Shown here piece after piece: positions 622-49,605 of a stretch of DNA of 64,000 nucleotides. The translations under genes and the position numbers were made by a program. Position 1 is the stretch's first letter, and each line of letters begins with the position of its first letter. The notes under the pieces were generated by a model, which worked only from the letters and a program-made list of their open reading frames with translations, did no database searches and had not been told where the DNA came from. Origin of the DNA: Holophagae bacterium (GTDB lineage: Bacteria > Acidobacteriota > Holophagae > Acanthopleuribacterales > Acanthopleuribacteraceae); contig JAJCXM010000008.1 of assembly GCA_029263455.1 (NCBI GenBank), positions 806,001-870,000 on the forward strand, in the 5' to 3' direction.

Positions 622-775
622 TGTAATCGGGCTTTAGGCATCTCAATCGACGACAGTCTTTGAGTAGATGTTCTCAGTTGGTTACTTGATATTAAGCACC
701 ACTCACTATGGTGCTGCAAGGAATGAATGGATACCGTTAATCATAAATACAAATGATCAGCATAGGAGCCTATTC

Positions 776-3700
776 ATGTCGAGCATTAGATTCCATTATC
801 TATTGGTACTTATTACGGTAACAGTCCAATGCAAAGCTCAATCATTCACAAGAGTTACGGATGCGGGTCCATTGGTGAATCGCAATCGTGTCTCGATCGG
901 TTGCAGTTGGGGTGACGTCAATAACGACGGTTGGATGGACTTGTTTTCTGTCGATCGACCAACCTCGTCGTTGTACATCAATCGTGGAGACGGTACCTTT
1001 GAAGAGGTGACGGATGGTCATTTGGTAACTTTTGCAGGCTTTCAAAATAGCGCCATCTGGGGTGACTACAACAACGACGGTTACAACGATCTCTACGTGA
1101 ATCAACTGGGACCCGGCACGCCCATCCCTGCAGGGCAACCACTCAATCCACGTGTCAATTTCTTGTACCGCAATATTGGGCCGCCCACCTACGAGCTTGT
1201 CAGAGACAGTGCAGGTGTGCTCGAGGACTCACTCAATATGACTTGGACCAGTGAATGGGCGGACTTAGACAATGACGGTGATATCGATCTATTGGTTCCT
1301 GGCGATCAACGAGACTTGGACTTTTACTTTGAGAATTTGGGTGACGGCACTTTCAGTAGGAACGAGAGTCTGCCTTTCCTAATTGCAGGCTCGTTTAGCG
1401 CCGCCGCCAATATGATCGATATGGATACCGACGGTGATTTGGATGTCCTGGTCGTCAATTTTCAAAGAGTCAATAATGAACTGTACCGAAATCTACTTTC
1501 CGAATCCGGAGAGTTGGCTTTTGAGTCCGTTAACGCTAACGCAAGCGATATTGTTGCCGACCGCGACGAGGACCTATCGCCCAGCTGGGGCGATTATGAC
1601 AATGACGGCGATCTTGATGCCTTCCTATGTGTTTGGAGCAACAGAGACAATGAGCTGTATCGCAATGATGGCGACCTAGTTTTCACAGATGTCGTCGACG
1701 ATGTGGTTGTTAATGACGCGGGTTGGTCATTGGGCAATGCATGGCTTGACTACGATAATGATGGCGACCTTGACCTATTCGTTCCCGACACGCAAGGTGC
1801 AGATCGTATGTACAGAAATGACGGTCAAGGTCACTTTGAACGAGTGCCTGCCTCCGAATTAGGCGACCTAGCCATATCGCCCGGCTTTGCAGGTGGTTGC
1901 GCCGTTGCCGACTACGACAATGACGGTGATTTAGATATTTATGTGCCTACCTCTGATGTGGCTAATTCACTCTTTCGCAATGAGAACGACAACCAAAACC
2001 ACTGGCTAAACATTAACTGTCGAGGGTCCGATTCCAATAGGACTGCGATCGGAGCACGCGTAACTGTGTCTACAGTTATCCAAGGACAATCGTTACAACA
2101 GATGAGATATGTGTTGGGCGGGCCAACGGGTGACCGCGGACAAAGTAGCCAGCGACTCCATTTCGGATTGGGAGATGCTGCAGAGACACGAACAATCACG
2201 GCTTATTGGCCATCGGGACGCATCCAACACGAGTATGGGGTTAAGAGTAATCAGTTCATTCAGTGGGTAGAAGGTACGCCTCTGCGATCGGTGGCCGAGC
2301 CTCTGAGTCGTTTGCTATACGCGTGGCTTTCCAATAACGCCCAGTTCTCAAGTTTATTGATTGTCAATAATCCTAACGCGAGTGCCGCTGACTTGATTCT
2401 CACTGCCCGTCGCGGCAATGGCGACATCGCGTCTACTGAACGCAGCGTTCAGGCGGGTGGCTTTTTACGTGCGTCCATTGCGGAACTCTTTCCCACACTT
2501 GGTGATGGCAGTGGCGTGACCGTACTGGTAGAAAGTGAAAACTTAGGCCTTAAGGGACGCTGGGTCACCAATAACCTTGCCGCTGGATCTGGACAGTCCC
2601 CTTCGCAAGGCGTGGCTGTGGATGTGAGCGCAGATTCCACGGATGATGAACGTTTTGGAGAGCAAATCCTGTATGGATTCTTGCCCGTCTCTGAGGGCTT
2701 GACCTCAGCGCCAGTAGTGGTAAACACAGGCGATAGCCCCATCGATGTCAGTCTTGAATTCATCAACGAAGCTGGCGAGACCGTTTTGCTCGACGAGACG
2801 ACACTCGTCCAGTTAGCGCCATTGAGGCCCTTTGCGGTGGTCGCCAATACTTTGCTGCCGCCAGAGTCAGGCGATGTCATGATGATCGCGCGCTCAGATT
2901 CCGGAAAACTGACCGGTTGTTCGTTTGTCTTCAATCATTTGGCCGAACCAGCCATAGGAAATGTGTCTTCTTTACGCGAAGCCGCAGCCACAAGAACCCT
3001 TATCTATCCTTGGTTGTCTAGTAACAATCAATTTGAAAGCATTCTCATTGCCAATAATTTGGGCACTGACCCCGTGGAGGTGACGCTCACGGCTAGACGA
3101 GCTGAAGGTGACGCTGTGGTGGCGACGAGAACGATTGCAGGCCGCGGGTTTCTTAAAGAACTTGCCAGTGATCTGTTTCCAGAACTTGGCTCAGGCTCTG
3201 GTTTTTCGGTCGTGTTAGAGAGTCAATCCAATCAGGTTCGCGGTCGTTGGGTGACCAATAATTTACAGGCTCCGTCGGGCCGATCACCGTCACAAGGCGT
3301 GGCGGTAGCCATAGAAGAGGTCGCCAATTCAAGGATTGGGGAAACCCTATTATTCGGATTCATGCCGGTCACCTCTGGGCTCACTTCCGCTCCCGTGGTG
3401 GTCAATATGGGCGAGCAGGCGACCGACGTCGCCCTGTACGTCTACAATCAGGAAGGTGCTCTTATTGCCGCTGATTTTGATTCGCTACAAGGCTTGCAAC
3501 CGCTTCGACCCTTTGCGGCAGTCATCAATCAAATTGTTGAAACAGACGAAGATGTCATGGTCATTGCGCAATCAAGTGATGGCTCTCTATTAACTGGCGT
3601 TGGCTTTGTATTCAATCAGTTTTCTGAACCAGCTATAGGCAATGTATCAGGCATTTCGTTCTCGGCCCCTGTTGCGGTAGGTGATATTGATGATCTGACT

Positions 3701-4780
3701 GTCCTCGATCAGGCCGATCAAGGCGATGCTTCCGACCTATTGGTGAGTTTCGCGCCTGACGAGAGCGAACTGGGAATTTTGGAGTACCGCGTCTTTTTTG
3801 CGCCGACAGATCAATTAATCCAACTAAACGAGGCAAGAAACTTACCCGCTGAACGCTATATGTCACGCAATCCAACGGGTGCAACGCAGTCATTCTCAAT
3901 GGACGCGAACCTGCTAGATGCCTTCGGACAGCCACTAACCCAAGACGTCAGTGTCCGTGTCTACGCCTTGTCTGTCGCCAACCAAGTGGACGCGCATATT
4001 GATCGTTTGGCGGTCTCGGATCCAATTACAGCCAGTATCATGTCAACGCCAGTGACCATCACCTATATCTCTAATGAAGGTGTCATGGTGGCGGATGGTA
4101 CGCACAAGGTACTAATTGATGCGGTGCATCGGACCGCCCCAGGAAACGGTTGGATTGTGCCACCGTTGGCGCAAATGACACCCGTCGAAGTGGGACAAGC
4201 TCCCTACGATAACGTCGATGTCATTATGGTCACCCACAATCATGGTGACCATTATTCGCCAACTGCCATTGGCAATTACTTGGCGGCTAACCCTAATACG
4301 AAGTTATTGGCTCCGCCGCAAGTTCGTCAAAACTTTACAGGCTCACCTCAAGTCTTGACACCAACCCCTGCTCTTGGGCAAAGCGAAACCGTTGAAGTCA
4401 ATGGAATGACCATCGAAGTGCTGCACGCGCGTCACTTCAATATATTCGGTAACGATTTTTCGGGTGTCGAGAACTATGTCTATTTGGTTCATATGGGTGG
4501 CAAGAAGTTAATGCACTTTGGCGATGTGGATATGGTGCCAGACAATATTTCGGTCTTTGGACTTGCCAGTCAGGATATCGATTTGATTGTCATTCCCACC
4601 TTTTCAACCTTGGTTAGCGCCATACAGCGCGACACGATTTCCATGTGGATTAATCCGCGTCAGATTGTGGCCGCTCACTTGCTAAGTGGGTCGATAGACT
4701 CAATCATGGCCAGCGTATTGAACTTCTATCCCGATGCCTGGATATTTACTATTCCCTTTGAACAACTGATATTCGAATGA
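776..4780 (+). CDS. secreted FG-GAP/ASPIC-UnbV protein with C-terminal metallo-beta-lactamase fold
   Basis: 1334 residues. The ATG at 776 is chosen over an upstream in-frame start (668) because AGGAG lies 7 bases before it and a signal peptide follows (MSSIRFHYLLVLITVTVQC). Residues about 25-420 hold FG-GAP/VCBS repeats with calcium-loop motifs such as DYDNDGDLD. An ASPIC/UnbV domain follows (GARVTV, GQSSQRLHFGLG, WPSGRIQ). Next come two tandem copies of a beta module of about 220 residues (YAWLSNNAQFSSLLIVNN and YPWLSSNNQFESILIANN), then a fibronectin-like stretch. The last 240 residues are an MBL fold of the UlaG/lactamase_B_2 kind with H1154-x-H1156-x-D1158-H1159 (THNHGDH), a later HARHFN and HFGDVD. 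It is probably secreted or surface exposed, with a hydrolase unit at the end of a long beta stalk. Substrate unknown. Confidence 0.85.
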   Translation: MSSIRFHYLLVLITVTVQCKAQSFTRVTDAGPLVNRNRVSIGCSWGDVNNDGWMDLFSVDRPTSSLYINRGDGTFEEVTDGHLVTFAGFQNSAIWGDYNNDGYNDLYVNQLGPGTPIPAGQPLNPRVNFLYRNIGPPTYELVRDSAGVLEDSLNMTWTSEWADLDNDGDIDLLVPGDQRDLDFYFENLGDGTFSRNESLPFLIAGSFSAAANMIDMDTDGDLDVLVVNFQRVNNELYRNLLSESGELAFESVNANASDIVADRDEDLSPSWGDYDNDGDLDAFLCVWSNRDNELYRNDGDLVFTDVVDDVVVNDAGWSLGNAWLDYDNDGDLDLFVPDTQGADRMYRNDGQGHFERVPASELGDLAISPGFAGGCAVADYDNDGDLDIYVPTSDVANSLFRNENDNQNHWLNINCRGSDSNRTAIGARVTVSTVIQGQSLQQMRYVLGGPTGDRGQSSQRLHFGLGDAAETRTITAYWPSGRIQHEYGVKSNQFIQWVEGTPLRSVAEPLSRLLYAWLSNNAQFSSLLIVNNPNASAADLILTARRGNGDIASTERSVQAGGFLRASIAELFPTLGDGSGVTVLVESENLGLKGRWVTNNLAAGSGQSPSQGVAVDVSADSTDDERFGEQILYGFLPVSEGLTSAPVVVNTGDSPIDVSLEFINEAGETVLLDETTLVQLAPLRPFAVVANTLLPPESGDVMMIARSDSGKLTGCSFVFNHLAEPAIGNVSSLREAAATRTLIYPWLSSNNQFESILIANNLGTDPVEVTLTARRAEGDAVVATRTIAGRGFLKELASDLFPELGSGSGFSVVLESQSNQVRGRWVTNNLQAPSGRSPSQGVAVAIEEVANSRIGETLLFGFMPVTSGLTSAPVVVNMGEQATDVALYVYNQEGALIAADFDSLQGLQPLRPFAAVINQIVETDEDVMVIAQSSDGSLLTGVGFVFNQFSEPAIGNVSGISFSAPVAVGDIDDLTVLDQADQGDASDLLVSFAPDESELGILEYRVFFAPTDQLIQLNEARNLPAERYMSRNPTGATQSFSMDANLLDAFGQPLTQDVSVRVYALSVANQVDAHIDRLAVSDPITASIMSTPVTITYISNEGVMVADGTHKVLIDAVHRTAPGNGWIVPPLAQMTPVEVGQAPYDNVDVIMVTHNHGDHYSPTAIGNYLAANPNTKLLAPPQVRQNFTGSPQVLTPTPALGQSETVEVNGMTIEVLHARHFNIFGNDFSGVENYVYLVHMGGKKLMHFGDVDMVPDNISVFGLASQDIDLIVIPTFSTLVSAIQRDTISMWINPRQIVAAHLLSGSIDSIMASVLNFYPDAWIFTIPFEQLIFE

Positions 4781-5538: not shown

Positions 5539-6438
5539 GTGTCATCAGGATCCATAGTTACGGGCGTATTGGCGCCACATCCACCCCATCTCATATATGC
5601 CGAGAACCCTGAACAAAACGAGCCCCAAGCTGAATGCGGTTGGGAAGGCTTACGATGGGGCTATGAGCGCTTGAGACGTAATCTGTCGAAGAAAGATTTT
5701 GACGTTTTAGTGGTCTATTCACCACATTGGGCGACCATGGTCGGAACCCATTTTTTGGGTGTGCCTCACTTTAAATCAGTGTCTGTTGATCCTATTTTTC
5801 CTAACTTGTTTCGCTTTCATTATGAGTTAGATGTGGATGTCGAACTTTCTCAAGCGATTCACGATGAAGCCGCGAGCCAAGGCATGGTCACTAAAATGAT
5901 GACTAACCCTGATTTTCGAGTGGATTATGGAACCATCATCTCGTGTCACTTGAGCCATCCAGCTTGGGACAAACCGATCGTCGCCATTTCCTCGAACCGA
6001 GCCGCTCGCATGTTCAATAACGACTACATGCAAGTGAACGCCATTAAATTAGGTCAGGCCACCCGAAAGGCCATTGAGAAGAGCGGCAAACGCGCCATTT
6101 TGTTGGCAAGCAATTCATTGTCGCATCGACATTTCGTGACTGAACCGCCCCTGCCTGAAGACATGAGCAAAGAACATATCAGCCACCACGGACAATATTT
6201 GTGGGATATGAGGATGTTAGAGCTCATGCGCGCTGGCCGCAGCAAAGAGATGCTTGATATTCTGCCTGATTTTACCGAGCAAACGGTGGCGGAAACCGAT
6301 TCGGGCGCTTTGAGCTGGCTGATGTCGGCCATGGACTATCCAGATTATGCGGCCGAAGTACATGCTTATGGCACGGTCATCGGAACCGGCAATGCCGTTG
6401 TTGAATGGGACGCTCAGTCGCAAGGAGTCACACCATGA
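5539..6438 (+). CDS. class III extradiol dioxygenase, catalytic subunit (LigB/AmnB-like)
   Basis: 299 residues from a GTG start with GGAGG 6 bases upstream. The protein begins with the LigB-superfamily signature VLAPHPPHLIYAENP (His14) and carries a second metal-ligand region, VVYSPHWATMVG (His about 63). AETDSGALSWLM near residue 254 occupies the position of the Glu ligand of AmnB, the catalytic beta subunit of 2-aminophenol 1,6-dioxygenase. The length of about 300 fits that family. The expected reaction is ring cleavage of a catechol or aminophenol with Fe(II) and O2. The stop overlaps the next start in ATGA, so translation is coupled to the partner subunit. The substrate cannot be read from the sequence. 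Confidence 0.82.
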   Translation: MSSGSIVTGVLAPHPPHLIYAENPEQNEPQAECGWEGLRWGYERLRRNLSKKDFDVLVVYSPHWATMVGTHFLGVPHFKSVSVDPIFPNLFRFHYELDVDVELSQAIHDEAASQGMVTKMMTNPDFRVDYGTIISCHLSHPAWDKPIVAISSNRAARMFNNDYMQVNAIKLGQATRKAIEKSGKRAILLASNSLSHRHFVTEPPLPEDMSKEHISHHGQYLWDMRMLELMRAGRSKEMLDILPDFTEQTVAETDSGALSWLMSAMDYPDYAAEVHAYGTVIGTGNAVVEWDAQSQGVTP

Positions 6439-7412
6439 GTCATGTTGCTGGCGGTTGGCTAGTTCCTGGTATGCCACATCCCTTGATGTGTCCTGAACGC
6501 AACGCAGGATGGAATAAGATTCGCCAGGCTTTTGATCAAGCACGAAAAGAGATCGAGCAGTCCGACGCGGATTTGCTGGTTATTTATTCAACCTTTTGGC
6601 CAAGCATCATAGGACATCAAATCCAAGCGTTGGCTGAACCAAAATGGACCCATGTTGATGAGGAATGGCATGAATTGGGCTCGATCGACTACGAGTTTAA
6701 GATAGATGCGCACTTCGCAGAGTCGATTCGCGCTGCTTGTCAAAAACGCGGTCTCCACGCGCGTACGGTGGCTTATCAAGGGTTCCCAATTGATACAGGC
6801 AGCATCGTCGCCTTGAAGTTACTTAATCCTGACAACAAGATACCCGCCGTCATTTTGTCGAGTAATGTCTATTCAGATCGCGCGGAAACGATTGTTTTCG
6901 GGAAAGCGTGTCATGACGCGGTCAAGGAAGAAGGTCGCAAGGCTGTCGGCATCGCGGTTTCAGCATTGTCTAATCGATTATTTACGGAAATCGTCGCTGA
7001 TGATCAAGACCACATTCATTCATTGAAAGATGATGAATGGAATCAGAAGTATCTTGAATTTCTTAACTTGGGTCGGTTAGAGGACGTGAGCCAGCTTTCG
7101 CGACAATTCCACCGCGAGGCACGTGTACACAAAGTAAGTAACTTCAAGCCGTTTTGGTGGCTTTCCGCCTTCATGGGACAGCACAACCGTTATCAGGGAA
7201 AAACACTAGCGTACGAGCCTATCTATGGGACAGGGGCAGCGGTGGTCGGGCTTTGGCCCGCCGAATCTGCGGCAAGAGATCTTGAGTACGACGAAAACGA
7301 TCCAGAACAGTACGAAGGTGATCGCAATGTTTTGAGTTCCAGTCAACAGAACTCCGATTTTGGGGGCCCGGACGTCGCCGACGGTTATCCAAATGGCAAG
7401 GACGGTATTTGA
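6435..7412 (+). CDS. LigB-superfamily dioxygenase, probable non-catalytic alpha subunit (AmnA-like)
   Basis: 325 residues from the ATG at 6435, which sits in an ATGA overlap with the catalytic subunit and has AAGGAG 8 bases upstream. The fold parallels the preceding protein (VAGGWLVPGMPHPLMCPERN, then DADLLVIYSTFWPSIIG), but the first-sphere ligands are not preserved: YSPHW in the catalytic subunit is YSTFW here and the N-terminal PHPPH is reduced to MPHP. This matches the known arrangement of aminophenol dioxygenases, where the alpha subunit lacks metal. A polar tail (about residues 285-325, rich in Asp, Glu, Asn and Ser) goes beyond the domain. Its stop overlaps the next start in TGATG. Confidence 0.75.
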   Translation: MSHVAGGWLVPGMPHPLMCPERNAGWNKIRQAFDQARKEIEQSDADLLVIYSTFWPSIIGHQIQALAEPKWTHVDEEWHELGSIDYEFKIDAHFAESIRAACQKRGLHARTVAYQGFPIDTGSIVALKLLNPDNKIPAVILSSNVYSDRAETIVFGKACHDAVKEEGRKAVGIAVSALSNRLFTEIVADDQDHIHSLKDDEWNQKYLEFLNLGRLEDVSQLSRQFHREARVHKVSNFKPFWWLSAFMGQHNRYQGKTLAYEPIYGTGAAVVGLWPAESAARDLEYDENDPEQYEGDRNVLSSSQQNSDFGGPDVADGYPNGKDGI

Positions 7413-8509
7413 TGGCTGTAAACGACGTTTCTGATCTTTACCCTCATTCGCCATTTGGAGAGCAAATAGAAAATATTCCCACCGGCCGAGATGTGGAATG
7501 GGAGCCATTAGTTGACTACCGTCGCAATGGTGTCAGCGAAAACACCATCCACGGCGCAGTAGCCTGGTATAGCGGCGACACTTGCATCCATTCATTTGGT
7601 GGCAATGTCCTTTGTTATGGCCGCAGCATGATGAAACTCTTGTATTTAAAGGTATTTGCCGATGATCTCAAGGATGTAACTACTTGGCATCAGAAAGCGA
7701 TTAGTGTAGCGAGTCACAATGGTACGGCCCAGCACGTTGATGCGGCACAGTCACTTTTGAGTGAAGGGGAGTGGGGTCTAATGCAGACGCCGCTGGACAT
7801 TCCACTGGTTCAATTTGGGCGGCAAGTACGTCGACCACGACGCTGGTATAACAATTCGTCAGGTCACCATGCAGCGATTCTAAAAGGATGTCGTATTCGA
7901 GGTTGGAACCGCTCTGGCTATACATTGCCTTCGCATCCCGTATTTAAGGCTTATTTGAATGTGGTGAGAAGTTACCTTGGGTCTGAATGGAAACCTTTAC
8001 GGGTTGCTCGCGACGGCGATGGGTTACCTACGTTATCGATGACGGTCAATGAATTGGGCCGCTGTTATGCGGGAATAGCGCGTCAACGCGATGACGATTG
8101 GATCTGGGAGTCAATGGTCCGCGAACCAGACTTGGTGGGCGGCTATAACCGACTCGATACCACCATTATCAAGTCATGTGCGGGCAAGGTTATCGCCAAA
8201 GAAGGCGCCGACGGACTGTTGGGTCTTGCCGTGGATCATCCTGATTTCCCTGATGGTCTAGGCATCGTTATCAAAATTGCTCATGGCTGGAACCCACAAG
8301 CTACTTGGTATATTGCTCGAGGTATTCTTGGTGTTCTGGGACACGAACTTCGAAATCCGTACCCGCTCCAACGCCAAAAAGCTTTCTTGGTGCCCGGTAT
8401 CGTACCTCCAAATTTAGTGCCCAAACTAGAGAAGATTCCTACATGGGATGAATGGGACCCTGACCGTGACCGCTGGTATTTTGATCCGAAAGATATCGAC
8501 ATCGATTAA
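7412..8509 (+). CDS. asparaginase II-like protein (Rhizobium AnsA type) with altered metal ligands
   Basis: 365 residues from ATG 7412, which shares its A with the TGA of the previous gene; AAGGA lies 9 bases upstream. The family is shown by IHGAVAWYSGD, RSMMK, ASHNG, NNSSGHHAAILKG, GYTLPSHPV and a Gly-rich C-terminal half. As recalled for the Rhizobium etli type II enzymes, a Ser-x-x-Lys pair is catalytic and Cys, Lys, Cys bind zinc. Here Ser72 and Lys75 are kept, but the zinc ligands appear as Ser149, His152 and Asp203 (the usual NCSGKH is NSSGHH; the usual DGC is DGD). It is therefore probably an amidohydrolase-like enzyme with a changed metal site or a changed substrate. Coupling to the ring-cleavage genes suggests a shared nitrogen-containing aromatic substrate; that is inference. 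Confidence 0.75.
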   Translation: MAVNDVSDLYPHSPFGEQIENIPTGRDVEWEPLVDYRRNGVSENTIHGAVAWYSGDTCIHSFGGNVLCYGRSMMKLLYLKVFADDLKDVTTWHQKAISVASHNGTAQHVDAAQSLLSEGEWGLMQTPLDIPLVQFGRQVRRPRRWYNNSSGHHAAILKGCRIRGWNRSGYTLPSHPVFKAYLNVVRSYLGSEWKPLRVARDGDGLPTLSMTVNELGRCYAGIARQRDDDWIWESMVREPDLVGGYNRLDTTIIKSCAGKVIAKEGADGLLGLAVDHPDFPDGLGIVIKIAHGWNPQATWYIARGILGVLGHELRNPYPLQRQKAFLVPGIVPPNLVPKLEKIPTWDEWDPDRDRWYFDPKDIDID

Positions 8510-8572: not shown

Positions 8573-9232
8573 ATGTGGGTTTTGCTGTGTATTTTCGTTT
8601 GGCCGTTTGATGAAGGTGAAACCGATGCTCGCGCAGTTCTTGCCGCCATGGGACGAACCTATCGGTCACTGCAGTCCTATCACGACAAAGGTAAAGTGGA
8701 GATTAAGGGAAGTGAGAGCCTTAAGGTTACCTTCCTAATCAAATACGAATCGCCCAATAAGCTACGCGTCGAATGGGTGGCGCCTGGTTCTTTTGAAGGC
8801 GCGCGTGTGCTTGTTCGTCGAGGTGCCGTTGTAACAGACGGTACACAAACCCTTTGGTATGATTCGCGGCGTGACAACCAAGAGAGTGATCAATCGTTGT
8901 CAAGTGCCATTGAGCTGTCGACAGGTGATTCATTTGGGAGTAGCCAAACAATTCCTAGTCTTCTGATGAAAGACATTGGTGGCTTCAACTTATTGGACCT
9001 GGTGGATGCGAAGATTGATTCCCAAGTTACGGTCGACGACAAGAACATCTATGTCATTCAAGGCAAGCACGCAGATGGAATAACTCCGTACGTGTTGTGG
9101 ATCGGTGTAGACGATCATTTGTTATATCGCGTCGAACACTCATTGGCCGTAGAAACCCATGAGTACATCGTCATCAACCAAGCAATCGATCCAGATTCGT
9201 TTCAGCCGCAAGGCGCCAAGTCCAAGAACTAG
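8573..9232 (+). CDS. LolA-like/DUF2092-type periplasmic protein
   Basis: 219 residues from ATG 8573, preferred because AAGGAG (8561-8566) precedes it and it opens directly into a short signal peptide (MWVLLCIFVWPF). The rest has the alternating beta pattern of LolA/LppX/DUF2092 proteins: an early YRSLQSYHDKGKVEI strand, KVTFLIKYESPNKLRVEW, then TLWYDSRRDN and LLYRVEH near the end. Such proteins bind lipids or lipoproteins in the periplasm. It follows the dioxygenase operon by 63 bases. Its stop overlaps that of the convergent sugar dehydrogenase gene in CTAG. Confidence 0.65.
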   Translation: MWVLLCIFVWPFDEGETDARAVLAAMGRTYRSLQSYHDKGKVEIKGSESLKVTFLIKYESPNKLRVEWVAPGSFEGARVLVRRGAVVTDGTQTLWYDSRRDNQESDQSLSSAIELSTGDSFGSSQTIPSLLMKDIGGFNLLDLVDAKIDSQVTVDDKNIYVIQGKHADGITPYVLWIGVDDHLLYRVEHSLAVETHEYIVINQAIDPDSFQPQGAKSKN

Positions 9233-10995
9233 TTAGCCAAATGCCATTGAAGCTTTAGGATACGGCCGCTAAACGAACATACTAGGATCTCGCCGTTGGG
9301 ATCCTCCGCAAACGAGGCCAGACTGTTAGGGGCAATTTGAGCGATTTGGCTACGCGTAGTCTCGCCGTTTTCGGCCAAATGCAGTGCCCATATTCGACCG
9401 CTAATAAAATCACCAAATATGTATCTTCCCGCTAAAGATGGCACCTGCGACCCACGATACACGAATCCACCCGTGACCGAGCGGTCACCCTGACTGCGGT
9501 CGTAGCTGTAGACAGGCAGTGTTATGCCGTCGAGGGAGCAATTTACAGGCTCGAAACAGGCATAGGCTTCACTTATGTTCCATCCTAAGTTGTCGCCGAT
9601 TGAAACCAGATTGATTTCTTCAAATCGATCTTGTCCAACGTCTGCGACCCACAAGTTCGGACTGTCACTTGCCCGATCAAAACTGATCCGCCATGGATTC
9701 CTTACGCCGTAAGCAAAGATTTCGAATCTGCTGCCGTCGTCCAGAGGCAAGAACGGGTTGTCGGATGGAATGCCGTAGGGCAGTTCGGGATCGGGCTTAT
9801 CGATGTCAATCCTGAGAATGGAACCCAAAAGAGTGGTTCGGTTTTGGCCATGTCCAAAAGGATCGCCGCCGCTGCCGCCATCACCCAGTGCGATGTAGAG
9901 ATAACCGTCGGGCCCAAAAACGATTTGACCACCATTGTGGTTAGAGAAGGGTTGATCTACTTCTAACAATACTTCCTGGGTACCGCTGTCCACGGATCCC
10001 TCGAGTTCGCGGAAACGCGCGATGATGCTGCGTCGCGGCCCGTTATTCTCGCTGACATAATTAACAAATATTTGCCCATTCGATGCGAAATTTGGATGCA
10101 GGGCTAAACCTAAGAGACCCATTTCACCTTGATGAGTGACCCTGCTGGATAGATTCAAATAGGAACTTGAACTCGATTGTTCAGTGAGATCAACTCGGCG
10201 TATGTCACCATTCTGTTGAGCAACATAAGCGAGATTTGGAAGGCCGGCCGCGAATTGGACGTCGATGGGCGCATCAAAAGTAGCGTTTTCGAAATAGTCG
10301 ACCAATTCGTATGTCACCGAAGCGATTGGCGGGGCGTAGGCCGCCACCGGGTTTGACCAAAGCAAGCGGTTGCCGTGGTCACCACTTAGCCCGATAACAA
10401 CGACGGGTTGATCGGCAACAATGTCAACGATCGATCCCGGATTGACGCCGTCAATCACATGTAGAGTCTTCGCTAGTGGGGCAAGAGCCGAAGAGATTTG
10501 TCGCTGCATTACGATGTCGCCATGATCATTAAATTCACGCAGTAATAGGGGGGTTGAGTGGGCGCCAAGATTTAGGATTGCTATGCCATCCCAATTGGCC
10601 GTGTTATCCCCCACAATCATGCGCCAAGCCTGGACTGGATGCGATGTTGCCTGAACTAGTGCTGCCGGACCACCACTCTTGGCTTGGTAGGCAAGATAAA
10701 CTTGGCAATCACCCTCTTGGGAGACGCTTAGGTGGGATAGGTTTTCGGCCGCCAATTGGGGCTGCAAGATTCGTTGGGTTTCAAAGGGGGCCAAAACATA
10801 AGCCAATTGCTTGATTTCTTGTCCAGCTGGGTCGTAAAGGTTCACTGAAAGACTTGTTTCTGTCTCGCCAGGATTACTTAGGATAAGTTGTGAGGTGAAT
10901 AGACCATCACTGGCGGGCACATGTGTTACCCAGTTTTGAGACAGTGCTTGGCTGGCTACCAAGAGGCAAAAGGTCGCTAGGCTAATTAAGTTCAT
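9229..10995 (-). CDS. secreted glucose/sorbosone dehydrogenase-like protein with N-terminal beta module
   Basis: 588 residues with a signal peptide (MNLISLATFCLLVASQALSQ). Residues about 21-230 form the recurring beta module of this window (WVTHVPASDGLFTSQLILSN, then NWDGIAILNLGAHS). Residues about 235-585 form a six-bladed GSDH propeller, the family of soluble PQQ-dependent aldose dehydrogenases: HQGEMGLLGLALHPNF (candidate catalytic His), NHNGGQIVFGPDGYLYIALGDGG, YGVRNPWRISFD and the terminal DPNGEILVCSFSGRILKL. It probably oxidises sugars or other alcohols or aldehydes in the periplasm or outside. The start overlaps the stop of the upstream gene in ATGA, so the two form an operon. Confidence 0.85.
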   Translation of the reverse strand: MNLISLATFCLLVASQALSQNWVTHVPASDGLFTSQLILSNPGETETSLSVNLYDPAGQEIKQLAYVLAPFETQRILQPQLAAENLSHLSVSQEGDCQVYLAYQAKSGGPAALVQATSHPVQAWRMIVGDNTANWDGIAILNLGAHSTPLLLREFNDHGDIVMQRQISSALAPLAKTLHVIDGVNPGSIVDIVADQPVVVIGLSGDHGNRLLWSNPVAAYAPPIASVTYELVDYFENATFDAPIDVQFAAGLPNLAYVAQQNGDIRRVDLTEQSSSSSYLNLSSRVTHQGEMGLLGLALHPNFASNGQIFVNYVSENNGPRRSIIARFRELEGSVDSGTQEVLLEVDQPFSNHNGGQIVFGPDGYLYIALGDGGSGGDPFGHGQNRTTLLGSILRIDIDKPDPELPYGIPSDNPFLPLDDGSRFEIFAYGVRNPWRISFDRASDSPNLWVADVGQDRFEEINLVSIGDNLGWNISEAYACFEPVNCSLDGITLPVYSYDRSQGDRSVTGGFVYRGSQVPSLAGRYIFGDFISGRIWALHLAENGETTRSQIAQIAPNSLASFAEDPNGEILVCSFSGRILKLQWHLAN

Positions 10996-12020
10996 GGATC
11001 CAACGGGAATACCGTCGATGTTCGGCCGGTAAGTTCTTGAGCAACGTAGAATAACTGCTGGATAAGGGTCTGGGTGGCATCGGCATCGGGGGATTTGTCG
11101 TTCAGATCAAAATCACTGTAGAAAACGGCGTTTCCTTTGCCTGCCTCGATCAGTTCGGCCGAGTAAAAACGCATATCACAGCAAGGGTCCTTGATGCCTG
11201 TGACGCGGAAGTTAATGAAACTCGCGTTCATCCAATCAGCGATGGGGTCGTTGTCTGTAGGCAAAGCTGCAGAAACACCCTGAAATTCAATCATGCCATT
11301 TGAAACGATCACGGTTTCGGTGATTGGAGCAAAGCCGCCAGATATTTGAACAAGCAAACGGTCACTCCAAACACTCGCAGGCGCAAACGATGTAAGCCGA
11401 GACTGTGTCTCATCATTGATGCCACCTAAAACGGTGGGAGCCAATCTCCCTGTTGATTGGATTTCAACTTGTTGTGCGTCCTGTAAAAATTCGGGAGCTA
11501 GGGTAAGTGTCACTTTGGATCCTGTGGCCATGGACTCCGAGATAGATATTTGGCGGATCACTTTACCTTCTGAGTCGATAGCAGACGCCGAGACAACAGC
11601 TGACGTCGCGCCGACGTTTAACAAAGCTATGCCAACCCAGGCGTTGTGGTCCTGGTCAACGAAATAGCGAAAGACAGTCCCTACAGGTGCAGGAAGAGGG
11701 ACAGTAACTTGGTTGGCGTATAGTTGGCCTTGATAGCGAACGCTTACGTCCAAAAGTGACGTTGATGTCTCGAAGTAGAGGGAACCTGAAAGGTCTCCAA
11801 TTTCGTAGCTTGGCACAACGATCTGGTTTCCTGCAGCAACATCAATCTGCCTAACTATTTGTCCTTTGTCAAAGAAGGTTATGCTGGCTTCGTTGCCGGA
11901 ATGATTGGCCAAGATGAGGTCGGACTGGAAGCTACGGGAAGCCCCAACCAGATGTGGGATCCATCCTTCGTTTGCAGTGCTGGATAACGAGAGCAACAGA
12001 AAAAGCATGAGCCGTATCAT
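10992..12020 (-). CDS. secreted beta-module protein, function unknown
   Basis: 342 residues from the ATG ending at 12020, preferred over an in-frame TTG five codons upstream because a GAGAGGTGA ribosome site precedes it and a signal peptide follows (MIRLMLFLLLSLSSTANEG). The body is the same module as the N terminus of the downstream dehydrogenase: WIPHLVGASRSFQSDLILAN, later WVGIALLNVGATS. The C-terminal 100 residues are distinct, with a paired Cys (DPCCDMRFY) and no recognised family. It overlaps the dehydrogenase by 4 bases, so the two are probably exported as partners. Confidence 0.7.
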   Translation of the reverse strand: MIRLMLFLLLSLSSTANEGWIPHLVGASRSFQSDLILANHSGNEASITFFDKGQIVRQIDVAAGNQIVVPSYEIGDLSGSLYFETSTSLLDVSVRYQGQLYANQVTVPLPAPVGTVFRYFVDQDHNAWVGIALLNVGATSAVVSASAIDSEGKVIRQISISESMATGSKVTLTLAPEFLQDAQQVEIQSTGRLAPTVLGGINDETQSRLTSFAPASVWSDRLLVQISGGFAPITETVIVSNGMIEFQGVSAALPTDNDPIADWMNASFINFRVTGIKDPCCDMRFYSAELIEAGKGNAVFYSDFDLNDKSPDADATQTLIQQLFYVAQELTGRTSTVFPLDP

Positions 12021-12267
12021 ATGATCACCTCTCAAGTGGCCGCCTTCTTAGGCAAATCACTTGATCTAAACCTTGTTATCGACATTGTAGCATTTTCCGT
12101 ACCAGTCACTGTGGCCGAGCATTCTTAGCCGGGACGTGTTTTCTGGATAGCCGTTGTCCCTTCTACATTGGCTTGGTCGGGCTATACTGACCGATATTTG
12201 TGTATGGCCATGTCACGGCCCTTGATCGGTTAGGACCGTGACTCTTGGTCAATGATGAGGCATATGG

Positions 12268-25246: not shown

Positions 25247-28200
25247 TCACTCGAATATTTCGAGTAAAGGTTGACCGACTGCTGGTTCTAAGTCGCCTGA
25301 CCAATTAAATGGCGGGTTGAGTCCAAAGTCGCCTTTATGTCTATAGCTAGTCAATCGGTAGAGTGGATTCTCGACTTCAAATTCGGAAAGCGGAACGGCA
25401 AGCGTCAGTACGTTGTCTCTAATCACGACTCGTGCAGCGCTATTTACTCGTGAAATGCTCCCGCGTGCCCGACTTACGATAAGTTGCCAGCCCGAAATGG
25501 GGCTGTATTCCAACGAATACCAGCGATCGGTATTTTGATATAGATCAAAAGGGAAGTTGGGGTGGGGGTCAAAGTTATTGATTTCATTGCGGTCGGCGTC
25601 AAACACGAACCCGAACTGATAATAGTTCTCGGGATCGTTTAAGGGGATCGACCCTCGGGTCACATTACTTACTACCAAATATTCGGCCGTTTCTGGTATT
25701 GGCGACGAGGGCTCGGCACAGACCACCAGCCCTAGATCAGTCATGCCGCAGGATCTGCGTTTGAATCGATCGGCAAGTCGAGTTATGTTTTTCTTAATGG
25801 CGTGAACATAATCAATTTCGACATCATAATCGGGCACGCCTACGTCACCAACTGAGTTTATGGAGCTGATGCCTACCAGAGGAAAGAACGATTGGCCTGT
25901 TATGGCTTCGGCAATGCTGCTCGGTCCTTCTTCTGGGCACATAGCTTGAATGATGTCAGGATGATCGGCGTCACTGCCGGCCCGAACATCTACGTCGAAG
26001 GAATCTGTATGAATCTGCGAGGTGGATTGGCGCCACGAATCGACCTCGATCGTGGCCATTCGGGCGTCAGTCTCGGCTTCTGGCGTACTAATAAAGACAC
26101 ACACGTCTACTTTTCCGCCGGGCGGGATTTTGCCATCTGCTGGTTGAAAGAAGAGGCTTGGGTGGTCACTGTAAACGGCAAAGTTAATTTCAACGTCGAT
26201 TCTCGGGTTCTCGATAGTGAATGTCTCGATCTTTTGCGCGTCTGGAAAGCATTGGCGGCTAAAGAACATGTGGGACAGCGCCTCTTCGTTTGGAAAATCC
26301 AAAAAAGGATCGTCAATTGGCGGACAGGGCGCACCTTCACCGAATCGCGTCAAGAAACCGTGGCTATTAAAGTGTAGAGGGCCATCAACGAAGTCGATCG
26401 GGCCAATTAAATCGCCCATTTCGTTGGTCAGTCCGGTTATGTCGCCATCGTCAACCACTAAATGATCGAGTAAAGTCTGTGTGAAGTAGCTAATCGGCTG
26501 GTCACCAAATATGCCGCGTGGACCATAGGCTGACTCGTCAGTTAGGCTGGCGCCGATGCCGGCAAAGTCAGAGAGATGGGCATCAGAATCGCTGATTAGT
26601 CGTTCGTTCAGGTCGCTAAGGATGGTCTCCGAACTACAGGTCTGTAGGATGACGCGCACCTTACAGGCAAATGACTCTTCCAAACACATCCTAGAAGCCG
26701 TCAAACCCAAAGTTAATGCTGGGGTCTGTGCACTCGTATGACACTCCATCAACATGGTCCCTGTAAAAGAGTTATCTGTGTCGATGGAATGATGAGCGGC
26801 CACGTAAATGATCAGAGTGGGTTCTTTTCCTTCCAGTCGTAGCTGGCGCATTTGCTTGTTGTACTGTTCAAATTGCTGCTTATAGATATTGGTCCCGTCA
26901 ATGAGCAGTGATTGATGATGCTCAGCCGTATATAAGTCGTAGTCAACGAAAGCTACTTGGCCAGCTGGAATTGACGATTCAAACAGTTTGAGCATGTTTG
27001 AGGCGTTGGCGTAGAAACGAGGCTCAATGCCGCCGTTAACGACAATCGCGAACGTATCCTCATTGGTCTTCTTTGAAAAATAGAATGACGATGCTTTGGT
27101 TGTATCTTTAAGGTCAACTGGTTGGACAACCTCAGGTGACCAATTGGGCGCAGTTAAAGGTGTGGTTTGTTGGTTTGCGTAGGCCGACGACTCTTTCTCC
27201 CAAATAAGCAAAGGACCCTGATCAAACCACAATGGCGAATAATTGAGACTGAGCGTGCTGTTAGTTGACCAGGAACTGATGGCGCCAGTCTGGGCACCGA
27301 CAAAATGGTAGGTAATTGGTTTGCCAAAATCGGCATTGAAGTCTTTGTCCTGTAATAAGACCCAAACAGCCTCCTGGAAAACGCGACTGTTCTGTCCATA
27401 AGCGATTTCGTCTCGAAGTGTAAATAGAGTGCCAGCTGGTATGGGCTGCATCGTGCAGACCAACAGGTCGGATTCTGCAACATCTACTGACGAAAAGGCA
27501 TCTTCTCGTTTGATGGCGTAAGAAGTAGTAGGGTCAATCAACGCAGCTTGTACATTTGTGAATGGGACCCGAATCCATGTCGACTCATAAAGGATTTCTA
27601 AGTAGAGCAAACCGGACGGTAAATCCAAGATTTCGAATCGTCCAGCTGTGTCCGATGTTGATGTGGCAATAACGTGATCTCGGCTGTGACCGCCATGAGG
27701 AAAGGGATCGAGAATGCGGATGGACAGTCCACTGACCTCGGACTCGATAGGCACAAAAGGTGTTACAAATCCAGATACGCGGTTTCCGCTTATGTCGACC
27801 GGAATTGCAAATCGAGATTGATCGATCGTTTCTCGTAAATCGAGCGTGGAAACAGGGTTGGCCCAAAGGTAGTTTGGTCCAGCCTGTGGAGGGCTTCCTC
27901 GTAGTCCCAAAACCAAAACCGGCGTACTAGAAGTTATTTCGATAAAGGCAGCATTTTCGTCGAACAGACCGTCAGCTGGACCGCCCAAAACCAATAGCGA
28001 CTTGGCCAGAGGTTCTAACGCTCTTACGCCAAAAACGGTCTTTAAAGTCTGTCCATCTTGACCTATCAGTGACACAGCCACATCGGTTTTGAGTGGTCCG
28101 CCATTAATGATCGCGATGCCGTCGAAAATCTCTGTCCATTGTCCTGATGTCAATCGCCAATGTTGGGAGAACTGGTCACTTTCCCAACTGATCGCCGGCG

Positions 28201-29191
28201 AACTCAGTCCCGAGACGGCGCGATAACGCATACCAAAAACTACATTTGGCGACGTGTTGAGTACCTCAACATGCGACAGTCCACCCACCGCTGGCCAGAT
28301 TGACTGAGGTTGGAGAGCTAAAGTCGCCTGCCCGTTGATCGAACTGGTGAACTGTCCAACAACTTGGCCACGAGCATCGTAAGCATTGAGCTGGAAGGTC
28401 CGGACGGAGTTGGTCGTGTTAACGGCCAATATTTCACTTTGGAATCCGCCATTCGGAGAAGTGATATGGGGCAACCAACGTTGCAGGCCCTCGACGGTGG
28501 GAAGCAAATCGTTCTGCCAAAGATAGCCGACTTCGGAACCAGGGGGTGTTCCCTGCAAGGCAATAAATGCGACGTCACCATCTGATTGCAATCGAAACCG
28601 CTCGCCAGCAGAACGGTCGAAGGGGCCACCTTGAGGGCCGCCGAGCACAAATAATGTCTTGGCATTGGCGGCCAGCGATTGCGAAATCATGATCTGGTTG
28701 GTTGTTTGTCCCTGGCGGTTGATCTGAGACAAGGTGACGGATGTTGGGCTAGTGCTCGTATTGACAATGGCTATCCCGTCAAAGACGTTTTGCCAATCTC
28801 CTGCAAAGAACCGGACCTCGCGATTCGAGCCTGTTGTTTGAATCGTGGCTGGACTACCTCGACCAGAGGCGACCCGGTAGTCAACTGAAAAAGTCAGATC
28901 GGCGTCGCTAGACACAATGCGCGCGTGACTAGCGCTTGATCCTAAATAGTCAGATACATTCATAAGGACGGTTTGCTGGCCAGCGACCTGTCCAGTGACT
29001 TGAGGAAGAGGCAATCCGTCAATTTGGTAGGGTTGTATCACGTAGGATCGGTCACTACCCCCGTCGTTTACGATTCTCAGTTCGGAAACAAAACCGCCAT
29101 TGGATGATGTTAAATGAACGAGCCACCGTGACTGAGCGAATAGTGGATGCACGACGAATGTGATGATCAAGGCTAGGCCGATTCTTTTCAT
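25247..29191 (-). CDS. large secreted protein: two beta modules, probable caspase-like peptidase domain, Ig-like domain
   Basis: 1314 residues from the ATG ending at 29191, which has GAGG upstream and a signal peptide (MKRIGLALIITFVVHPLFAQ). Residues about 22-230 and 235-455 are two copies of the recurring module: WLVHLTSSNGGFVSELRIVN with FDGIAIVN, and WLPHITSPNGGFQSEILAVN with FDGIAIING. A carboxypeptidase-regulatory-like beta unit follows. Around residues 705-900 the pattern FAIVVNGGIEPRFYANASN, then LIIYVAAHHS, then VILQTCSSE fits a clan CD (caspase/gingipain) fold, with candidate His near 800 and Cys near 852. An ASPM/Hydin-like Ig domain (FTIENPRIDVEIN) and an unassigned C terminus end the protein. 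The peptidase reading is by pattern only. Confidence 0.7.
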   Translation of the reverse strand: MKRIGLALIITFVVHPLFAQSRWLVHLTSSNGGFVSELRIVNDGGSDRSYVIQPYQIDGLPLPQVTGQVAGQQTVLMNVSDYLGSSASHARIVSSDADLTFSVDYRVASGRGSPATIQTTGSNREVRFFAGDWQNVFDGIAIVNTSTSPTSVTLSQINRQGQTTNQIMISQSLAANAKTLFVLGGPQGGPFDRSAGERFRLQSDGDVAFIALQGTPPGSEVGYLWQNDLLPTVEGLQRWLPHITSPNGGFQSEILAVNTTNSVRTFQLNAYDARGQVVGQFTSSINGQATLALQPQSIWPAVGGLSHVEVLNTSPNVVFGMRYRAVSGLSSPAISWESDQFSQHWRLTSGQWTEIFDGIAIINGGPLKTDVAVSLIGQDGQTLKTVFGVRALEPLAKSLLVLGGPADGLFDENAAFIEITSSTPVLVLGLRGSPPQAGPNYLWANPVSTLDLRETIDQSRFAIPVDISGNRVSGFVTPFVPIESEVSGLSIRILDPFPHGGHSRDHVIATSTSDTAGRFEILDLPSGLLYLEILYESTWIRVPFTNVQAALIDPTTSYAIKREDAFSSVDVAESDLLVCTMQPIPAGTLFTLRDEIAYGQNSRVFQEAVWVLLQDKDFNADFGKPITYHFVGAQTGAISSWSTNSTLSLNYSPLWFDQGPLLIWEKESSAYANQQTTPLTAPNWSPEVVQPVDLKDTTKASSFYFSKKTNEDTFAIVVNGGIEPRFYANASNMLKLFESSIPAGQVAFVDYDLYTAEHHQSLLIDGTNIYKQQFEQYNKQMRQLRLEGKEPTLIIYVAAHHSIDTDNSFTGTMLMECHTSAQTPALTLGLTASRMCLEESFACKVRVILQTCSSETILSDLNERLISDSDAHLSDFAGIGASLTDESAYGPRGIFGDQPISYFTQTLLDHLVVDDGDITGLTNEMGDLIGPIDFVDGPLHFNSHGFLTRFGEGAPCPPIDDPFLDFPNEEALSHMFFSRQCFPDAQKIETFTIENPRIDVEINFAVYSDHPSLFFQPADGKIPPGGKVDVCVFISTPEAETDARMATIEVDSWRQSTSQIHTDSFDVDVRAGSDADHPDIIQAMCPEEGPSSIAEAITGQSFFPLVGISSINSVGDVGVPDYDVEIDYVHAIKKNITRLADRFKRRSCGMTDLGLVVCAEPSSPIPETAEYLVVSNVTRGSIPLNDPENYYQFGFVFDADRNEINNFDPHPNFPFDLYQNTDRWYSLEYSPISGWQLIVSRARGSISRVNSAARVVIRDNVLTLAVPLSEFEVENPLYRLTSYRHKGDFGLNPPFNWSGDLEPAVGQPLLEIFE

Positions 29192-29562
29192 GATGTACCT
29201 CATCCGGATTGATAGCATATGTCTAACCTACACAGCAAAAGGAGACGGCGCCTCTGATCTCTTCTGACTTCTTCTGACTTTTTTCTAAGTGATTGTTTTT
29301 AAACCGGATAGGAGCTGCTGTCTACGCAGCAGACAGAACATTTACGGTACCTAAGAGACAAACTCCCAATAGCTCGGCTTAGCGATATTGGGCTGGGAAC
29401 ATGCAATTTGTGGGAAGTCGTTATTTTGCAAATAGCTACTTTGAGGGGTTGGCGGGTCTCATCCAGAGGGTCTATGTAACAATTTAAGACACCGTATTTT
29501 GATCTAGTTGGATCGAAGAACGCGCCCTTTATGTACCTTCAGCCTCTTGAACAAAATGCTGT
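29192..29562. other. 371-base intergenic region
   Basis: No gene is seen between two minus-strand genes. The only pattern is a short direct repeat of CTTCTGACTT near 29258-29285 in a pyrimidine-rich patch; it probably contains the promoter for the large secreted protein. Confidence 0.4.
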
Positions 29563-47853: not shown

Positions 47854-49605
47854 TTATTCAGGCGATAACGACTCCATACCTGCCAGAAGACTTCTGTCAC
47901 CCAAGTTACCTATTAACTGGAAACCAACCAATGCTGCTGAGCCTGACGTTTGCCGTAAACTGATATGACTCGATTCGGGAGGTAATACTTGACCATTAAA
48001 GAACGAAAGGTCCGTCGCCAACTTCTTTTGCCTTGCCGTCATTTGCACGGTCGTTGTCGATAGGACATGTCCCGACTCGGCAAAGACGGTTGTTTCAAGA
48101 TTAATTGTTTCCGCTGAGCGATTAACCACCGCGAAACCAGTCCAGCTCTGGTCATCGGACCAGACGATGGGGAACACAACTTCTCGGTGCGCTTCCTTGG
48201 CTGACTGGAATCCGGCCAGGAACTGGTCTGAACGATCGCCAAATAAAACATATCCAGCCAACAATCTCGTTCCTTTGATAATGACCCAGTCAGTATCGGC
48301 TGGAATGACAAGGCCTTTGTCGGGTGTGCTGATGGTTTCTGGTAACGAACCAGCGCCTGCTTGAAAAAGAACGGTCACTTTCTCGAGTGGGTCCAATGTA
48401 AATGGCTGCTGAGACGTTTGTGCGCCTTGGTCGTTATAGGTGAAGAACTCAACTTGGTTGCTAATTTCAGAGGCGTTGACAGCCACTAAACCTGTCCAGA
48501 AAACGCCAAGGTTCTTGGCAATATGAGCATAGGTGAGTTCTTGAGATAGCTTGTGGTCTAAAGGCAATGTAACCGACTGACGAGCCGTATGTTTGCGAAA
48601 CTGTTCTAAGCCAGCGATGCTATTGGAATACTGGCTATCGTCACAATAGCCCCAACTTAATCCCGGCGGCAGACCCGTCGGGTAAGTCTCTTGATTAAAG
48701 TGCGTGATTCCAGACTGTTGGCCGCTGATATTCAGGTCCTGCTGAAAATTGTAACCGCGAAACCAAATGGAATCGCTGTCAGTGCTACCCGTTACGTAGA
48801 GCTGGGTATCGAACTGTTCCAGCCGCAAGGCAATGTGGGGAACAATGAGTTCATGTGACTGCTTTGAAAAAGGCGAAAGGTCGAGCTCTTGACGGTCCTG
48901 GCTTACATTAAGCGCATAGCCACCTAATAATCCTAAGCCGTCGATATGCACCCAGCCGGATTGACCACTAGCCGTGATGGTTGTTTTTTGGTACGCGGCT
49001 AAAGTTGTGCTGCCTAGTTCCAAGCGCGTGCCGTCGTCCGTCACTTGGTAAGCCACGAAACTACCGCCATTTGGGCCGGCCAGAAGTGAGAACTGCCCGT
49101 TTTCTCGTATTAGAGAACTAAAATGTTGCGTAGCTGTCGATGGCCCGATTTCAACGGTGGCTGATTTTGATTGGCCCAAACCGTTTACCGGTGGATTACC
49201 TAATAGGTAGGCGGCGTTGGAAGATTCATCCGTGATTTCTATTGAATGACTGCCAATGGATAAGGCTGTAAAAAATAACCTCATGCTTCGTTTGCCGTGG
49301 CCTTCGAGTCCAGGCTTAGGTTTACCTTCGACCCAACGTACGACTCGTTCGTTTTCGTCAACAGACCACGCTGGTTGGATAAAGAACTCGAAATCACTGG
49401 CGAGTGATTGTACGCGCTCGAATTGCAATCCCTCACCGTAAGTGACCGCCATGTCTAAAACCACAAGCGCCTGATCACTGTGAAGACGAACATCAACGAT
49501 AACGGTGTCGCCGATGGCCACAGTCTGTTTTGCGGGCGCTATATGAATGTCCGCGGCAAAGAGCCACAGACTTGTGGCGATTATCGGTATCACGGCTACT
49601 CCCAT
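47854..49605 (-). CDS. secreted protein with N-terminal cohesin-like domain and beta modules
   Basis: 583 residues; it overlaps the 3' end of guaA by 10 bases. A signal peptide opens it (MGVAVIPIIATSLWLFA). Residues 18-150 read like a cohesin: IHIAPAKQTVAIGDTVIVDV, LVVLDMAVTYGEGLQFERV, then a late SIEITD strand. The remaining 430 residues belong to the recurring module family: HIALRLEQFDTQLYVTG, WTGLVAVNASEISNQVEF and SWTGFAVVNRSAETINLETT. The genes on both sides are housekeeping, so it is a secreted gene inserted into a metabolic run. It could hold dockerin-bearing partners at the cell surface; that is inference. Confidence 0.65.
   Translation of the reverse strand: MGVAVIPIIATSLWLFAADIHIAPAKQTVAIGDTVIVDVRLHSDQALVVLDMAVTYGEGLQFERVQSLASDFEFFIQPAWSVDENERVVRWVEGKPKPGLEGHGKRSMRLFFTALSIGSHSIEITDESSNAAYLLGNPPVNGLGQSKSATVEIGPSTATQHFSSLIRENGQFSLLAGPNGGSFVAYQVTDDGTRLELGSTTLAAYQKTTITASGQSGWVHIDGLGLLGGYALNVSQDRQELDLSPFSKQSHELIVPHIALRLEQFDTQLYVTGSTDSDSIWFRGYNFQQDLNISGQQSGITHFNQETYPTGLPPGLSWGYCDDSQYSNSIAGLEQFRKHTARQSVTLPLDHKLSQELTYAHIAKNLGVFWTGLVAVNASEISNQVEFFTYNDQGAQTSQQPFTLDPLEKVTVLFQAGAGSLPETISTPDKGLVIPADTDWVIIKGTRLLAGYVLFGDRSDQFLAGFQSAKEAHREVVFPIVWSDDQSWTGFAVVNRSAETINLETTVFAESGHVLSTTTVQMTARQKKLATDLSFFNGQVLPPESSHISLRQTSGSAALVGFQLIGNLGDRSLLAGMESLSPE

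Follow-up and report, generated by a model that had tools for sequence, protein, structure and literature searches.

A secreted module family of Acanthopleuribacteraceae assigned by profile and structure comparison to the ASRAH superfamily

A 64,000-nucleotide stretch of the genome of a Holophagae bacterium (GenBank assembly GCA_029263455.1, contig JAJCXM010000008.1, positions 806,001 to 870,000 of the forward strand; hereafter the window, in whose own coordinates all positions are given) encodes several proteins that share a module of about 205 residues. Profile comparison and structure modelling place this module, with fold and kinship both well supported, in the ASRT/ASRAH superfamily, distantly related to the fold of the sensory rhodopsin transducer of Anabaena (ASRT); in the models, the unit is an internal duplication of two homologous eight-stranded beta-sandwich lobes. 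It represents a set of secreted ASRAH dyads that has expanded greatly in this particular lineage, and no library model exists for this domain variant. This gives both fold and superfamily to a domain missing from the libraries tested, one that about 60 proteins of a single genome carry and that occurs dozens of times in each genome of a family of animal-associated Acidobacteriota; the same comparisons tie the Pfam family DUF5719 to the ASRT superfamily.

The ASRAH superfamily is defined by Thermotoga TM1070 and ASRT, and De Souza, Iyer and Aravind (2009) predicted sugar binding for it, from gene context and the pocket ligand in 1NC7, as well as dyads and tetrads in its extracellular members (PMC2739507). 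Its hallmarks are a Trp that opens strand 1 and an Asn, almost invariant, that closes strand 2, and the extracellular versions described there are only amidase-linked and actinobacterial families (PMC2739507). No paper linking an ASRAH domain to the bacteria studied here was found in the open-access literature, and secretion systems, adhesion and surface proteins were not mentioned in the family's genome paper, as judged by a term search.

The AlphaFold2 (AF2) model of the module of the 9229-10995 protein (predicted local distance difference test, pLDDT, 92.9; predicted TM-score, pTM, 0.88) has eight strands in each half, and the two halves are homologous (lobe 1 against lobe 2, hhalign 95-98%). 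The only domain-scale PDB match in the Foldseek list was Thermotoga TM1070 (1NC7; probability 1.00, TM-score up to 0.72 (TMt), rmsd 2.8 Å, 7% identity). A separate AF2 model of low confidence, made from three sequences for the divergent unit of the giant 668-4780 protein, matched 1NC7 and Anabaena ASRT (2II7), both at probability 1.00, so that the two models agree with the single conserved fold that a preliminary description of this DNA, based on its letters alone, had proposed. The top Foldseek rows also included lectin- and complement-like structures (6T1D, 5MHO and others), which were ruled out because their TM-scores were below 0.3 and their rmsd above 13 Å. A viral structure library gave weak whole-chain matches alone, which were uninformative.

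The closest named sequence family is DUF5719 (PF18986). Profile-profile comparison gave 97-98% between ASRT (PF07100) and DUF5719, 94-97% between DUF5719 and each lobe, and 77-93% between ASRT and the lobes when deeper profiles were used, with at most 6.4% in column-shuffled and at most 12% in reversed controls. The expanded lobe profiles held some DUF5719-type rows, and the comparison was therefore rerun, as a check for circularity, with profile rows restricted mainly to family genomes: the ASRT-lobe values were then somewhat lower (77-79%; shuffled controls at most 6.4%) and the conclusion was unchanged. Two observations weigh against the assignment. Compared directly, ASRT and the lobes show modest similarity (16-21% with seed profiles of 21 sequences), so that the superfamily link rests mainly on the DUF5719 intermediates; and the Foldseek E-value for 1NC7 is just 5.6e-3, despite the high probability and TM-score. 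PF18986 and PF07100 themselves look homologous, sharing a WxxAEG / ILN pattern besides their profile match (loci L150-L164 and L173-L178), and sub-threshold ASRT matches lie in proteins with DUF5719-type repeats (L177, L178).

By its sequence, the module belongs to neither named family, ASRT proper nor DUF5719, because other residues stand in place of those of the ASRT pocket and every member here scores below the PF18986 cut-off. DUF5719 members above that cut-off occur in 20 of 149 genomes of the phylum, at loci that match the hidden Markov model (HMM) of the unit down to 2e-27, and none was found in the window's genome (best score 24.1 against a gathering cut-off of 26.2 bits); sub-threshold matches of 12-19 bits recur on the module proteins. 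The DUF5719-type repeats of relatives read WxFAEGxT, whereas the module reads WIPHxT...FDGIAxVN. PF07100 had no match in the window's genome, no named Pfam or NCBIfam model exceeded its threshold on the module, and PDB sequence-profile searches gave no match to it. Of the novelty that the preliminary description had attached to the unit, the absence of a Pfam or NCBIfam model naming it stands; the fold is no orphan, being that of the ASRT superfamily. Soli_cterm (TIGR03437), a C-terminal model of about 225 positions, resembles the module in length and in its occurrence in Acidobacteriota, and was ruled out (zero matches in the window's genome, none on the module proteins).

The Asn at the end of strand 2 is near-invariant in both lobes (N25 in 56 and N126 in 61 of 62 modules), and when ASRT SHETACILN is aligned with lobe-2 IFDGMALVN the lobe-2 Asn falls on the ASRT Asn. 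At the strand-1 positions, Trp is the commonest residue and is not dominant (position 6: W in 27/62, otherwise mostly I, M or Y; position 108: W in 23/62, F in 21/62). Where PF07100 has its SHEshChhN signature, the module has (F/W)DGxAxxN in lobe 2 and FxTxxxLxN in lobe 1. Four polar residues are near-invariant: His9 (62/62), Lys160 (61/62), Asp120 (57/62) and Arg188 (51/62), at a paralogue identity of about 25-30%. The module resembles ASRT/ASRAH proteins (PF07100; 1NC7; 2II7) in the eight-stranded sandwich of each lobe, the strand-2 terminal Asn, the dyad or tetrad arrangement, the joining of extracellular versions to enzymes and, less clearly, the strand-1 Trp position, and differs from them as a secreted dyad of two diverged lobes, with the pocket His and Cys replaced, dozens of paralogues per genome and about 20 partner types.

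In the window, the neighbouring minus-strand genes 9229-10995 and 10992-12035 overlap by 4 bases and encode exported proteins with the common unit at their mature N-termini (WVTH / FTSQLILSN / WDGIAILN and WIPH / FQSDLILAN / WVGIALLN, respectively; BLASTP of the 9229 unit against the 10992 protein, E=5e-7); the motifs from which the shared unit had been proposed are present letter for letter. The two copies reported for the 25247-29218(-) protein (FDGIAIVN, FDGIAIIN) were recovered as well (BLASTP against the 9229 protein, E=2e-19 for copy 2 and 8e-15 for copy 1). The unit HMM, which was built from 29 own-genome units and has the window units among its seeds, scored 6e-66 and 3e-64 for these copies, 7e-63 for 9229 and 2e-43 for 10992. 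The variants proposed in the 47854-49605(-) protein (WTGLVAVN, WTGFAVVN) and in the giant open reading frame (ORF; possible start 668, later possible start 776) are too diverged for convincing BLAST scores, and their whole-protein HMM scores, though significant (1e-15 and 1e-16), are summed from weak pieces; they were confirmed by lobe-by-lobe profile-profile comparison (95-98%, reversed controls <1%). The modules and attached domains of the window are:

10330..10947, minus strand: predicted ASRAH dyad module of the 9229-10995 protein (residues 17-222, immediately behind the signal peptide of about residues 1-19).
9274..10272, minus strand: glucose/sorbosone dehydrogenase (GSDH) partner of the same protein (residues 242-574; PF07995, Pfam 1.1e-42).
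11370..11978, minus strand: divergent module of the 10992-12035 protein (residues 20-222).
10995..11369, minus strand: C-terminal domain of about 125 residues of the 10992 protein, without known family (no Pfam or NCBIfam match).
28493..29140, minus strand: module copy 1 of the 25247-29218 protein (residues 27-242).
27839..28492, minus strand: module copy 2 of the 25247-29218 protein (residues 243-460), in tandem with copy 1, i.e. four lobes.
2300..3682, plus strand: two divergent tandem modules (four lobes) in the 668-4780 protein (residues 545-1005), between FG-GAP/ASPIC repeats and a metallo-beta-lactamase domain (hhalign 95.0% for the first lobes, 95.5% for the second, reversed controls <=0.4%).
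4058..4672, plus strand: metallo-beta-lactamase-fold partner in the 668-4780 protein (residues 1131-1335; PF12706 2e-11, PF13483 7.5e-11).
47857..48549, minus strand: two divergent lobes at the C-terminus of the 47854-49605 protein (residues 353-583; hhalign 97.9% to lobe 2 and 96.4% to lobe 1, reversed controls <=0.4%).

The 47854-49605 protein has a possible third, weaker lobe at residues 248-350. Among the partners named beforehand, the sugar dehydrogenase and the metallo-beta-lactamase fold have Pfam matches, and the caspase-like and cohesin-like units found no support in Pfam, NCBIfam or PDB sequence searches.

Searched with the single 9229 unit, the 6.2-Mb genome gave 52 matching places (E<=1), and a 21-sequence profile gave 88 matches at E<=0.1. 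The module was found in 63 proteins at E<1e-11 (counted in 56 genome stretches around matches, plus the window), 25 of them with full-strength copies, in agreement with the idea that many exported proteins of this lineage share a single conserved all-beta fold and vary widely in their partners. Their placement is mostly terminal: 26 N-terminal, usually right after the signal peptide, 29 at the extreme C-terminus (tails of 0-19 residues), 4 alone and 4 internal. A crude signal-peptide rule fires in 48 of the 63, compared with 88 of 191 other nearby ORFs of at least 250 residues (many of these ORFs are spurious). The module is joined to about 20 kinds of partner; by Pfam, these include enzymes (GSDH, penicillin amidase, astacin, S41, S8, M4, reprolysin-like M12B, C25, serine beta-lactamase, metallo-beta-lactamase, alpha/beta hydrolase, Cu-dependent monooxygenase) and other domains (DUF3160, DM13, PQQ, Kelch, PD40, Vps10-BNR propellers, LRR, FG-GAP/ASPIC, PKD, Big). 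The stand-alone proteins L059, L065 and L109 consist of a signal peptide and the module only.

The module was thought to be organism-specific, and this did not hold: it is spread throughout the family and part of the class and is sparse in the phylum, and it belongs to the ASRT/DUF5719 ('ASRAH') superfamily. All seven genomes of Acanthopleuribacteraceae, the family to which the window's genome belongs, have 37-67 module matches each at E<=1e-3 (the relatives in the orthologue scan were Acanthopleuribacter pedis, Sulfidibacter corallicola and several metagenome-assembled genomes), nine genomes of a second family of the class have 13-38 weaker matches, and 25 genomes of a third family, inferred to be Holophagaceae-like, have no match. 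Phylum-wide, 32 of 297 genomes showed a match at 1e-6, most of them weak, and full-strength copies occur outside the family in at least three genomes (G048, G196, G223).

The role of secretion signal that had been considered for the unit is unlikely, given its position at either the N- or the C-terminus, its stand-alone copies and the module-free GSDH paralogues. GSDH occurs with the module in the window's genome, in a same-genus genome and in a third genome of the family, and without it once in the window's genome and elsewhere, the module-free copies still having a signal-peptide-like start; the module is therefore an accessory, unnecessary for export. That it is a recognition domain for type II secretion is very improbable in our judgement: the secretin GspD is present in the genome, over its cut-off, and most carriers look exported, but same-family enzymes of the same genome have signal-peptide-like starts and no module, it is absent from about 25 genomes in another family of the class, and no single domain is known to act as a universal type II signal. 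A type IX sorting domain was rejected as well, the module being N-terminal in 26 proteins and matches to the type IX Por_Secre_tail (PF18962) near-absent: genome-wide, there was one borderline match, located outside the module matches.

Our preferred reading, which we hold to be slightly on the probable side, is that the secreted ASRAH dyad works by analogy like a carbohydrate-binding module, keeping secreted enzymes on glycan. In Acanthopleuribacteraceae the dyad has multiplied to several dozen copies per genome, and exported enzymes and repeat domains that are unrelated to one another have acquired it, mostly at the mature N-terminus or at the extreme C-terminal end. The partner would be exported by Sec and possibly carried onward across the outer membrane by type II secretion; the dyad may then bind glycan, whether in the envelope or exopolysaccharide of the cell itself or in a polymer of a host or of the environment, and so keep the enzyme where it is useful. 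The presence of the module in about 60 exported proteins with proteases, acylases, dehydrogenases and other domains indicates that it probably serves secreted enzymes as a binding tag of general use. Placement at either end of the protein, copies that stand alone, doubling in tandem and the near-invariance of polar residues suit a binding module better than a cleaved sorting tag or an inert spacer. We infer ligand binding (of glycan or another small molecule), the identity of the ligand and the retention of the enzyme, a glycan being the most likely ligand from the carbohydrate-binding-module analogy and the superfamily prediction.

Several points count against glycan binding. Few partners are glycan-active, unlike those of classical carbohydrate-binding modules; sugar binding by the superfamily is itself a prediction (PMC2739507); and in lobe 2, Phe/Trp and Ala stand in place of the two ASRT pocket residues (the His and Cys of SHEshChhN), which may mean a different ligand or loss of the pocket. 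Beta-sandwich carbohydrate-binding modules share with the module the terminal, separately folding sandwich on secreted enzymes, a likeness of working, and differ in topology (PMC2739507); the partners of the module are mostly not glycosidases, and its ligand is putative.

The same module on very different partners, at terminal positions, would also suit a role in surface anchoring or display, as the preliminary description proposed, in which the dyad docks on a common cell-surface protein or self-assembles, displaying its partner; we consider this possible though unlikely. The near-invariant polar residues could serve a common protein contact, a solo-module protein kept in two genomes of the genus (L059/L109) could be a lattice subunit, and TM1070 and ASRT are tetramers (PMC2739507). 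L059 and L109 are orthologous and therefore do not represent a truncated gene. However, no recurring anchor-like motif was seen, placement at the N- or C-terminus excludes a classical C-terminal sorting signal, type IX tails are nearly absent (the one borderline match), and a paralogue identity of about 25-30% is low for one common docking partner. A wider, lineage-wide version of the binding tag, in which the ASRAH dyad has become a standard module of Acanthopleuribacteraceae and attaches a large part of the secretome to one glycan class or to the cell's own surface layer, with cellulosome-like scope, a use undescribed for this fold and separate N- and C-terminal sub-lineages, is rather doubtful. 

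The module might instead have a passive, purely structural role without specific ligand, like PKD, Big or Fn3 domains, as a spacer, a shield against proteases or an aid to folding. It is all-beta, tandem and terminal and co-occurs with PKD, Big and FG-GAP repeats, and modules often diverge faster than the attached enzyme (identity of 39% vs 60% for GSDH and 54% vs 69% for penicillin amidase), although not always, L049/L104 going in the opposite direction (module 78-82%, enzyme 72%). The unusual polar conservation (His9, Lys160 and Asp120), the copies that stand alone and the ligand pocket of the fold family speak against it, and we regard it as distinctly improbable; a binding module is favoured over a passive stalk because the polar residues are invariant across paralogues of about 25-30% identity and because ligand binding is predicted for the superfamily. 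Many paralogous modules on many enzymes offer an unusually clean test of extracellular ASRAH sugar binding, a prediction open since 2009, and a binding or display tag, if true, would explain how a broad range of proteases, acylases and oxidoreductases is retained at a surface in these bacteria.

In a quick tree of 62 strong modules, many branches of which are weak, N- and C-terminal modules form mostly separate sets (5 position changes, against 20.8 expected on shuffled labels), and at least two placement switches are forced by well-supported branches.

The same-genus genome also has the 10992-9229 gene pair: in L166, the orthologue of the 10992 protein adjoins the GSDH orthologue, and the C-terminal domain of about 125 residues is 42% identical; an orthologue of this domain was found only there. 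Other module proteins of about 350 residues that lie beside module-bearing genes (L053, L122) carry unrelated C-terminal domains. In 668-4780, a single exported protein brings together a metallo-beta-lactamase-fold domain, FG-GAP/ASPIC repeats and four lobes of ASRAH type. The middle of the 25247 protein (26300-27340), which is the unit earlier called caspase-like, has AAHHS and QTCSS stretches and no Pfam, NCBIfam or PDB sequence match, and a sister module protein (L071) carries peptidase C25. At 5539-7412, two adjoining paralogous genes (26% identity, E=7e-29) are followed by a third, overlapping ORF at 7409-8509.

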